DNA of 42,525 nucleotides from NCBI GenBank assembly GCA_022321325.1, contig JAKOEO010000031.1, positions 1 through 42,525 of the forward strand. The letters run 5' to 3'. The position numbers and the translations under genes were made by a program. Shown here in pieces: positions 3,055 through 8,528 of this stretch. The stretch's first letter is position 1. Each line of letters begins with the position of its first letter. This stretch comes from Candidatus Magnetominusculus sp. LBB02 (GTDB taxonomy: Bacteria > Nitrospirota > Thermodesulfovibrionia > Thermodesulfovibrionales > Magnetobacteriaceae). Under the pieces are notes generated by a model. It was not told where the DNA came from. It saw nothing but the letters and a program-made list of their open reading frames with translations, and ran no database searches.

Positions 3055-3171
3055 GATTTATTTTAGCGTTAATAGAATTATTATTGTATTAGTGTTATGC
3101 TTGATCGCTCTGTTGGTTTATGCAGCTTTCTCGCTGTTCACGCACCGCCGGAAAATGTTAAACTCTACCGT

Positions 3172-4479
3172 ATGTCGGCAACAAGTCATCAGATAATCAC
3201 GGGCGATAGCAGGCAGATGAGCCTAATCGCTGACTCATCAGTCCATCTGGCCGTCACATCCCCCCCATACTGGCAGCTTAAAGACTACGGCTCTGTCAAT
3301 CAAATCGGCTTTCATTTGAGCTATGAAAGTTATATCAATAACCTGAATCTCGTATGGAGTGAATGCCACAGGGTCTTACATCAGGGCTGCCGACTCTGCA
3401 TAAATATAGGAGATCAGTTTGCCCGTTCTGTCTATTACGGGCGCTATAAAGTGATTCCAATCAGGACGGAGATTATTAAATTTTGCGAGACCATTGGGTT
3501 TGACTACATGGGCGCCATTATCTGGCAAAAGGTTACCACGTGTAACACAACGGGCGGGGCCTCCATTATGGGCAGCTTCCCATACCCCCGAAACGGCATC
3601 CTGAAACTCGACTATGAATTTATCCTGATATTCAAAAAGCAGGGGACATCGCCCGTGCCGTCAAAAGAGCAAAAGGCACTCTCGGCGATGACTAAGGATG
3701 AGTGGAATACGTATTTCTCCGGCCACTGGCACTTTGCCGGTTCAAAGCAGGACGCCCATATTGCCGTGTTCCCGGAGGAGCTGCCAACGCGTCTTATTAA
3801 AATGTTTTCGTTTTGCGGCGAGACGGTCTTAGACCCGTTTATGGGCAGCGGCACTACCGCCCTTGCCGCCCGTAATTTAGGCCGCAATTCAGTTGGTTAT
3901 GAAATTAATCCCGACTACATTGCGGTAATCAAAGACAAGCTCAACGTGAACCAGTGCGACCTTGCCGGTACAGAATATATTTTCAGAGACGATATTATTA
4001 ACGCTAACTTTGACAAGGATATTGAAAAACTGCCCTACATCTTTAAAGACCCGCATAAACTAAACAAGCAGGTTGATATCAAGAAACTCCAATTCGGCTC
4101 AAAAATAGATAAAGACAGCACCCAAAGAGAGCAATATTATTCAGTTAAAGAGGTAATAAGTCCGGTGCTGCTAAGGCTGAACAGCGGCACGGTCGTGCGT
4201 CTGATTGGAGTGAAAGAAAAAGAGGCCGCTAATGCTCAGGCCGTAAAATATTTGATTGAAAAGACAAAGGGCACAAGGGTGTTTATGAAATTCGACAGCG
4301 AGAAATATGACGACGGCAATAATCTGCTATGCTATCTCTACCTTAGCAATAAGACCTTCATAAATGCCCATTTGATTAAAGGAGGACTGGCTCTGCCGGA
4401 TATGTCTTTCAATTTCAAACACAGAGACAGATTTCAGAAACTAGCCGCGCAATATGACCTAAACAGGGAGGCACGATGA
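3172..4479 (+). CDS. DNA N4/N6 methyltransferase with C-terminal SNase-like domain
   Basis: 435 residues from the ATG at 3172. Motif IV is TSPPYW (residues 29-34) and the AdoMet-binding motif I is DPFMGSGTT (221-229), so motif order is that of the beta class. SPPY favours N4-cytosine as the target, though N6-adenine is not excluded. Residues 325-428 resemble the staphylococcal-nuclease fold: VKEVI, VVRLIGV, then KYDDGNNLLCYLY, then FINAHLIKGGLA. Against S. aureus nuclease, R35 and E43 look kept, but D21, D40 and R87 appear replaced by V, K and N, so it is probably a binding rather than a cutting domain. No restriction enzyme gene is adjacent. An in-frame ATG at 3097 would add 25 residues; neither start has a ribosome site. 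I chose 3172 because IITGDSR then lies close to the N-terminus. A TAAACT box seven bases upstream suggests leaderless translation. Confidence 0.88.
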   Translation: MSATSHQIITGDSRQMSLIADSSVHLAVTSPPYWQLKDYGSVNQIGFHLSYESYINNLNLVWSECHRVLHQGCRLCINIGDQFARSVYYGRYKVIPIRTEIIKFCETIGFDYMGAIIWQKVTTCNTTGGASIMGSFPYPRNGILKLDYEFILIFKKQGTSPVPSKEQKALSAMTKDEWNTYFSGHWHFAGSKQDAHIAVFPEELPTRLIKMFSFCGETVLDPFMGSGTTALAARNLGRNSVGYEINPDYIAVIKDKLNVNQCDLAGTEYIFRDDIINANFDKDIEKLPYIFKDPHKLNKQVDIKKLQFGSKIDKDSTQREQYYSVKEVISPVLLRLNSGTVVRLIGVKEKEAANAQAVKYLIEKTKGTRVFMKFDSEKYDDGNNLLCYLYLSNKTFINAHLIKGGLALPDMSFNFKHRDRFQKLAAQYDLNREAR

Positions 4480-6199: not shown

Positions 6200-6400
6200 T
6201 TATTGTTCCATCACACGTTGCAGCGCCCACATTAACCGCTCATAGCTCCAACCAACCTGCTCGGCGTGCCTGAGGATTTCCTCATAGACAGACCGTTCGC
6301 TCTCGCCAAGGAATGCCGCGCCGCCGTTGATTATCTTACTAAGAATGGCATGGTCAGTCTGGCTAAGGACTTCAAAAATATCATCGGTGTCGGCGCTCAT
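6200..6400 (-). CDS. small hypothetical protein, probably leaderless
   Basis: 66 residues, acidic N-terminus (MSADTDDIFEVLSQTD), then a helical part rich in E, R and W. No signal peptide or membrane segment, and no family recognised. Its stop is two bases from the convergent tilS stop. There is no ribosome site; instead a promoter with TATAAT ends seven bases before the ATG. The good promoter placement supports it as a real gene despite its size. Confidence 0.55.
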   Translation of the reverse strand: MSADTDDIFEVLSQTDHAILSKIINGGAAFLGESERSVYEEILRHAEQVGWSYERLMWALQRVMEQ

Positions 6401-6470: not shown

Positions 6471-7841
6471 TTAAGATTTCAGACATCTTTGAAGCAGGGC
6501 GTCAAACAGGTCTATAAACAGGTCAATCTCTTCTTTTGTTATCGTAAGGGGCGGCGCCAGCGTGAAAGTATTTTTATAGTAGCCGCCTACGTCTAAAACA
6601 AGGCCATAGGTCTTTGCGCCCATGTCAATATTGCCGTTAATGCCCTCTTCAAATATCTTTTCAGTCAGCGCCCTGTCAGGGGTTATGCCGTCAGGTTTAG
6701 TCATCTCAACTCTTACTGCAAGGCCAAGCCCGTCCACATCTCCTATTACTTTATGCCGCTTTTGCAAATCCCTGAGAGAATTTAGCAGATACTGTCCTTT
6801 TTCCTTTACCACGGTTTCCATATCGTTTTCTTTGAAGCAGCTCATCGTCGCAAGGCCGGCGGCCGTCCCAAGCGGATTGCTTGAGAATGTAGAATGGGTT
6901 GAGCCCGGAGGGAAGACGTTCGGATTTATCAGCTCCTCTTTCGCCCACATACCAGAAAGGGGATTCATACCGTTTGTAAGGGCCTTGCCAAATACAATTA
7001 TATCTGGCTTGATGTCGAAATGTTCGATAGCCCAGAGTTTCCCTGTCCTGTAAAAACCCATCTGTATCTCGTCGTCCACGACAAGTATTCCATGTCTCTG
7101 AAGGACGGCGTTTAACTTTCTGAAATAATCTGGCGGCGGTATGGCATAGCCGCCGGTACCTTGAACAGGTTCGATATAAAACGCGGCGAACTCGGACTCC
7201 TTTTTCCTGCCGGAGACAACGCCGTAGTATTCAGTCTCAAACAGACGCTCAAACTGCGTTACGCACTCATAGTCGCATTGGCCGCGCCGTTTTCCATAAA
7301 AACACCTGAAACAGTATGGATACGGGACAAACAGTGCCCTGTTTCCGAAGTGCCCGTACTGCTGCCTGTATCTATAGCTGCTTGTTATTTCCGATGCCGC
7401 GAGGGTGCGCCCGTGGTAGCCGCCCATAAAGGCAATCATGAGAGATTTCCCGTTCGCATAGTTTCTGACAAGTTTCAGGCTGTCTTCTACTGCCTGCGAA
7501 CCGCCGACATTAAAGTGCACCCTGCCCTTAGTGCCAAATCTTCGCTCTGTCTCAATGCACAGCTCTGCGCAAAGCAGTATTTTTTCCTTATGCAAATACT
7601 GGCAGGCAAGCTGCGGCAGCCGGGAAAGCTGAGCATTATGGGCAGCTTCAACCGCCTTGTTCCGGTAGCCCAGGCCTACGGCAGAGTACCACATCTGCAT
7701 GTCGAGATATGCCCTGCCGCTGGTGTCATAAAGCCACGCCCCCTAGCACCGGTCAAAGATTTTTGGGGTCTTCAGGTAATGAACCGTATCTCCAAACGAA
7801 CAGTAGCGCGATTCTAAATCCAGTAGTTCAATATCGTCCAT
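6471..7841 (-). pseudogene. class III PLP aminotransferase interrupted by one in-frame UAG
   Basis: The reading starts at an ATG at 7841 with a good ribosome site (GGGAG, five bases away), and runs 32 codons to FDRC. It meets TAG (7743-7745 on the plus strand) and continues in the same frame as GAWLYDTSGRAYLDMQMWYSAV. Both halves read as one class III aminotransferase of about 456 residues. The pyridoxal-phosphate lysine is in FGKALTNG, and the VVDDEIQMGFYRTG and GSTHSTFSSNPLG motifs are intact. The rest has no frameshift or other stop. Either the gene was inactivated recently, the stop is read through, translation restarts at ATG 7700 (409 residues lacking the N-terminus), or the base is a sequencing error. 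Substrate unknown; the gene follows the HAD phosphatase by 33 bases. Confidence 0.85.
7743..7745 (-). other. in-frame UAG codon within the aminotransferase gene
   Basis: Homology-like reading continues directly on both sides (FDRC before, GAWLYD after). TAG also ends tilS, so it is a normal stop in this genome. My recollection of the family is that an acidic residue sits here (RCEG), which would make this a single GAG-to-TAG change. Confidence 0.85.
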
Positions 7842-7874
7842 ATCTCTCCCATCATGCACATTGTACTTAATATT

Positions 7875-8528
7875 TTATTTTAAGCCAAGTCTCACAAATA
7901 AATCTTCTATATCCTTGAAATTGTTAAAGCCATAAAAGTTAATTCCATTTTCACGGCAATAGTCGGAGAGTTTTCCTTTGGACAACACCATGGATGCCTG
8001 CCTCGCCGCACAAAAATCACTATGGCCGTCTCCTATGAGTATGGCGGGCAGACCTGAGTTTCTCATAGCCATACACTTGCAATTTCCGGATGTACAGCCC
8101 TGCGCGCTATACGGGTAGGAAATCCTTAGTCTGCCGTCAGCCTCTGACAGCTCATTTGCATATACTGAAATCCCGTCAACGCCTGCATTAGCGAGCATTC
8201 TCTCTATGACAACCGCAAAGCCGTCGCTCACAACGGCTGCAGATGTCCCGGCCGACTTTAGAAAGCTGTGAAACCCCCTGAAATGCGGGTCAATCGTAAA
8301 ACCATCCACATAGCTCAAAATCGTCTCTAATGTTACGCCTATCAGACCAACCTGTCCTCTAAGACACTCGGCCGAGCCGATTGTACCATTAAGCCACAAG
8401 TTTTCAAACGTCTGCCAGCCCGGCTCTGCAAATTCCTCTATGATAGAATCTACGATATCGTCATCGGTTATTGTGCCGTCAAAGTCTATCGCCACAAAAT
8501 GCCGCATCGCCTCAGTCTGACAATCCAT
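7875..8528 (-). CDS. HAD-superfamily phosphatase, MtnX/SerB-like (subclass IB)
   Basis: 217 residues. The nucleophile motif is DFDGTITDDD, motif II is VVSDGF, and the C-terminal motif is LIGDGHSDFCAA. The overall plan resembles MtnX (a methionine-salvage phosphatase) and phosphoserine phosphatase-like enzymes. A C-x-x-GNCKC cluster (TSGNCKC) in the middle is unusual and could bind a metal. The adjacent aminotransferase suggests that the pair acts on a phosphorylated amino or keto compound, but the substrate cannot be read from sequence. The start could be the ATG at 8528 or at 8507 (MRHFVAIDFDG); neither has a clear ribosome site. Confidence 0.82.
   Translation of the reverse strand: MDCQTEAMRHFVAIDFDGTITDDDIVDSIIEEFAEPGWQTFENLWLNGTIGSAECLRGQVGLIGVTLETILSYVDGFTIDPHFRGFHSFLKSAGTSAAVVSDGFAVVIERMLANAGVDGISVYANELSEADGRLRISYPYSAQGCTSGNCKCMAMRNSGLPAILIGDGHSDFCAARQASMVLSKGKLSDYCRENGINFYGFNNFKDIEDLFVRLGLK

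Follow-up and report, generated by a model that had tools for sequence, protein, structure and literature searches.

Introduction

Many in-frame stop codons in conserved prokaryotic genes have been proposed to be read through, and the evidence consists of stops that are common to orthologues (PMC7918605). Programmed readthrough is recognised by a stop conserved in orthologues and a stimulatory RNA structure 3' of it, pyrrolysine recoding by PylS together with tRNA-Pyl(CUA), and reassignment of UAG by the loss of RF1 and of UAG as a terminator. Young bacterial pseudogenes can carry a single nonsense codon in an otherwise conserved accessory gene. Here we compare these systems with a class III aminotransferase gene of Candidatus Magnetominusculus sp. 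LBB02 that contains one internal TAG. The window, i.e. the whole stretch of DNA that was analysed, comprises 42,525 nucleotides.

Results

The features of the locus are as follows.

6471..7841, minus strand: class III (PF00202) aminotransferase gene, broken at codon 33, 456 codons with readthrough (translation, profile match, motifs, fold)
7743..7745, minus strand: in-frame TAG, codon 33; E, D, Q, K or N in homologues, mostly encoded by GAA or GAG (translation, alignment, codon counts)
7844..7850, minus strand: Shine-Dalgarno-like GGGAGAG ahead of the true start, ATG 7841 (sequence)
7698..7700, minus strand: internal ATG (codon 48), a possible yet unlikely restart; Leu in 76% of homologues (alignment)
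7773..7802, minus strand: N-terminal family motif CSFGDTVHYL, codons 14-23, upstream of the stop; residues 17-21 invariant in 80 homologues (alignment)
7875..8528, minus strand: intact MtnX-like HAD-IB phosphatase, the conserved partner directly upstream of the aminotransferase (profile matches, alignment, locus comparison)

Translation of the minus-strand frame from 7841 to 6471 gives M1...R31-C32-*-G34...S456-*, in which the TAG at 7743-7745 is the only internal stop and no further lesion was seen. With X put at codon 33, the Pfam family Aminotran_3 yields one match that spans the stop (residues 26-448, E 3.9e-78), in agreement with an earlier note on this DNA, which had described one in-frame TAG inside an otherwise intact aminotransferase gene. 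No NCBIfam cut-off was reached among the models listed. A structure model, for which the TAG was replaced by a placeholder residue, has the predicted fold of a class III aminotransferase (mean pLDDT 80.3, pTM 0.84), and its best structure matches are the amino-acid racemases and GABA aminotransferase 6gio, 5wya and 1szk (Z about 41). The copy retains its catalytic motifs, as the note had stated, including the PLP-lysine motif FGKALTNG. The start at ATG 7841, 33 bases after the HAD gene, is convincing, given the good Shine-Dalgarno sequence GGGAGAG.

Two homologue searches returned relatives of up to 73% identity, mainly from Nitrospirota, Omnitrophota, Acidobacteriota and Proteobacteria. In all 80 aligned homologues the protein starts upstream of the TAG position (matches begin at residue 1-13), and conservation begins at residue 13 or earlier in every close homologue. 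None of the 80 has an internal stop. Column 33 is occupied by E (50), D (11), Q (8), K (5), N (4), S (1) and H (1), so that codon 33 is a variable, mostly acidic and otherwise polar site. The earlier suggestion to look for GAG in relatives was fruitful, as the codon is GAG in 21 and GAA in 29 homologues, with others in the rest, and lies one base from TAG in 29/80, the 21 GAG among them.

Of 176 highly conserved columns, 3 differ in the window copy, a number that is within the range of intact homologues and accords with the claim that there are no other lesions. Differences from six relatives amount to 0.55-0.82 before and 0.55-0.64 after the stop at third codon positions, and to 0.00-0.18 and 0.12-0.17, respectively, at second positions; this comparison shows purifying selection ahead of the stop as well as behind it. 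Since the Pfam match, the conservation and this selection all extend across it, the TAG truly sits inside one gene, within a region that aligns to intact homologues. A chance join of two adjacent genes is ruled out by the domain and the conservation crossing the stop. Selection may have kept the gene until very recently, the stop may be absent in the organism, or it may be tolerated; all three fit the data. The 3/176 deviation and the lack of other lesions are expected if the stop is very young, and therefore neither support nor exclude a loss of function.

Four cysteines at 7263-7313 (minus strand, codons 177-193) are invariant in an alignment of 30 sequences, are spaced C-x2-C-x8-C-x3-C in the window copy and are retained there. 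They suggest that this aminotransferase subfamily may bind a metal or an Fe–S cluster. Near this region the structure model is of low confidence. A search for a redundant close paralogue found other class III enzymes of the same genome, which are only 30-38% identical over the matches.

The HAD phosphatase and the aminotransferase occur together in 79/84 homologue loci of many phyla. The pair is also present on Rhizobium plasmids, where genes for arginase, EamA, desaturase, alpha/beta hydrolase and GNAT-like proteins follow. Its variable, biosynthetic-looking clusters contain arginase, EamA, alpha/beta hydrolase, acyl carrier protein (ACP) and ketosynthase, and FemAB/GNAT-like genes. The window has the pair on its own: none of its usual neighbours (alpha/beta hydrolase, FemAB/GNAT-like, EamA, arginase) lies beside it. 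An orthologue of the hydrolase is located on another contig (C73) and shares 56-76% identity with those of Nitrospirota carriers; in the stretch read from that contig (L166, 9170-12242) it adjoins reductase-like and ketosynthase-like genes, with a masked N stretch alongside. A genome search for the GNAT-like partner found none; it had no positive control and is therefore weak. We found no paper on the HAD-aminotransferase pair.

Both genes are absent from 6/6 genomes of the same genus, three of which reach only 64-75% completeness and one 84%. Counting the window's own genome, the aminotransferase is present in 3/19 genomes of the family and 9/176 of the order. The same-genus genomes keep the block of STAS, tilS and a small ORF, beyond which the flank runs into other genes in the three longer stretches read. 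Due to the absence of the pair from these six genomes, the operon is accessory here, as judged from gene content, and its loss is plausible; together with its rarity in family and order, this indicates that lacking the aminotransferase is tolerated. The small ORF (6201-6400, minus strand, about 66 codons) lies tail to tail with tilS, is found beside it in all six same-genus genomes at 53-63% identity and has no Pfam match. Elsewhere in the window, 3097-4479 joins a DNA methylase (N6_N4_Mtase) to a C-terminal part with an SNase-like match; such a fusion is unusual.

The decoding of UAG was assessed in the assembly and in a genome sample of 401.5 kb (the window plus 18 stretches). TAG terminates 53 of 261 long ORFs of the sample (about 20%), next to 112 with TAA and 96 with TGA, and RF1 is present above its cut-off. 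An Rfam tRNA search found 32 tRNAs, for all of which ARAGORN gave anticodons, and none is CUA. Two of them are cut by contig ends and could have hidden a suppressor; they proved to be Ala(CGC) and Thr(TGT). Searches for PylS and PylB, each of which passed its cut-off in one of 14 control genomes, gave only sub-threshold matches in this assembly, which is 91.6% complete. It is possible, though not indicated, that a pyl gene or a CUA tRNA is absent through this incompleteness.

Discussion

We propose that the TAG arose recently, most simply from GAG, by substitution of a single base in codon 33 of this accessory aminotransferase gene (class III), which would form a two-gene operon with the MtnX-like HAD phosphatase. 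RF1 would read the UAG as stop, so that a peptide of 32 residues would be made and the enzyme be lost or greatly reduced, and too little time would have passed since the mutation for other signs of decay to build up. We consider a recent nonsense mutation, one of the options of the earlier note, the most likely reading, with a probability of roughly 0.62. It is favoured by the single TAG, the stop-free homologues with 29/80 codons one base from TAG, RF1, the use of TAG as a stop and the lack of CUA tRNA, PylS and PylB among what was found. The tolerated lack of the operon in related genomes also speaks for it, as do the usual neighbours missing beside the pair and the GNAT-like partner that the genome search did not find. 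Against it count the lack of decay beyond the stop, with catalytic and cysteine motifs and the HAD partner intact, as a consensus error or a tolerated or read-through stop would look the same, and the hydrolase partner orthologue that is still present on another contig. Two points of this reading are inferred, namely that the base is no consensus error and that the gene yields no working protein.

The main rival, clearly less probable than the nonsense mutation and still to be taken seriously, is that the TAG stems from a consensus error of sequencing or assembly, or represents the rarer allele of a mixed population, and that the real gene is intact; sequencing error was also among the options of the note. 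One substitution suffices for this, the rest of the gene is lesion-free and strongly conserved, and the assembly is a draft (142 contigs, 91.6% complete, 2% contaminated). However, substitution errors are rare in a well-covered short-read consensus, and the assembly shows no visible excess of them. A coding-potential scan for internal stops in the 401.5 kb returned mainly neighbouring genes in one frame, and for 0/10 other in-frame stops tested was one protein family shown to be interrupted; the scan was crude, 6/10 lacking any Pfam match. Functional readthrough, in which near-cognate tRNAs decode the UAG and some full-length enzyme is made, seems improbable. Near-cognate decoding of UAG can insert Q and K, both of which occur at site 33, where several polar residues are tolerated. 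The selection on both sides of the stop also speaks for readthrough, as does the argument that in-frame stops in conserved bacterial genes are often read through (PMC7918605), but past conservation fits equally a mutation too young to show decay. Moreover, none of the 80 homologues shares the stop, RF1 is present, the tRNA searches revealed no suppressor, and folding of the 103 nt that begin with the TAG is no better than that of shuffled sequences (z -0.51), so that the programmed readthrough considered in the earlier note gains no supporting signal from orthologues or from unusual RNA structure 3' of the stop. Slightly more doubtful still is a stable, tolerated UAG with useful low-level readthrough, by which the aminotransferase would be functional at reduced dose in this species.

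Two further readings carry very little weight. A restart at ATG 7700 (codon 48), also raised in the note, would leave 409 open codons with the PLP-lysine motif. This is highly unlikely to give a functional shortened enzyme, since all close homologues reach further upstream and the lost part holds the SxGDTVHY motif with its invariant GDTVH (residues 17-21). The lost strands align to the N-terminal region of class III enzymes of solved structure and belong to the predicted fold, the first Met of the shortened form is Leu in 76% of homologues, and the only resemblance to a ribosome site is AGGG, 11 nt upstream. A natural start at MQMWYSAV, for which the note had advised checking homologues, is ruled out, as none of the close homologues starts there. 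Reassignment of UAG or its use for pyrrolysine is the least probable of all: the frame stays open past the UAG, the codon for pyrrolysine, but homologues carry mostly E or D at the site, and the tRNA, RF1, PylS/PylB and stop-usage data speak against both; the note, too, had thought reassignment unlikely.

By itself the finding carries little weight, being a further case of an accessory gene interrupted in a draft genome. It illustrates cleanly that a single internal stop in a conserved gene calls for a look at homologues, tRNAs, release factors and reads before recoding is proposed. Arguably, more interest attaches to the conserved pair of phosphatase and aminotransferase, together with the variable biosynthetic genes around it.

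Compared with the class III aminotransferases of the GABA aminotransferase and amino-acid racemase group, the enzyme is alike in fold and Pfam family, but represents a distinct subfamily that is paired with an MtnX-like HAD phosphatase. With pyrrolysine recoding the locus has the in-frame UAG in common, whereas no PylS, PylB or CUA tRNA was found in this genome. It resembles the proposed readthrough stops (PMC7918605) in its internal TAG and in the purifying selection on both sides; those stops rely on sharing among orthologues, while here no orthologue has the stop. Most likely, the interrupted gene is an ordinary case and not evidence for a special reading of the genetic code. From the young pseudogenes of bacteria with a single nonsense codon we found no difference in this locus, which is known from assembled sequence alone: in both, an accessory gene is conserved apart from a single stop in its frame.
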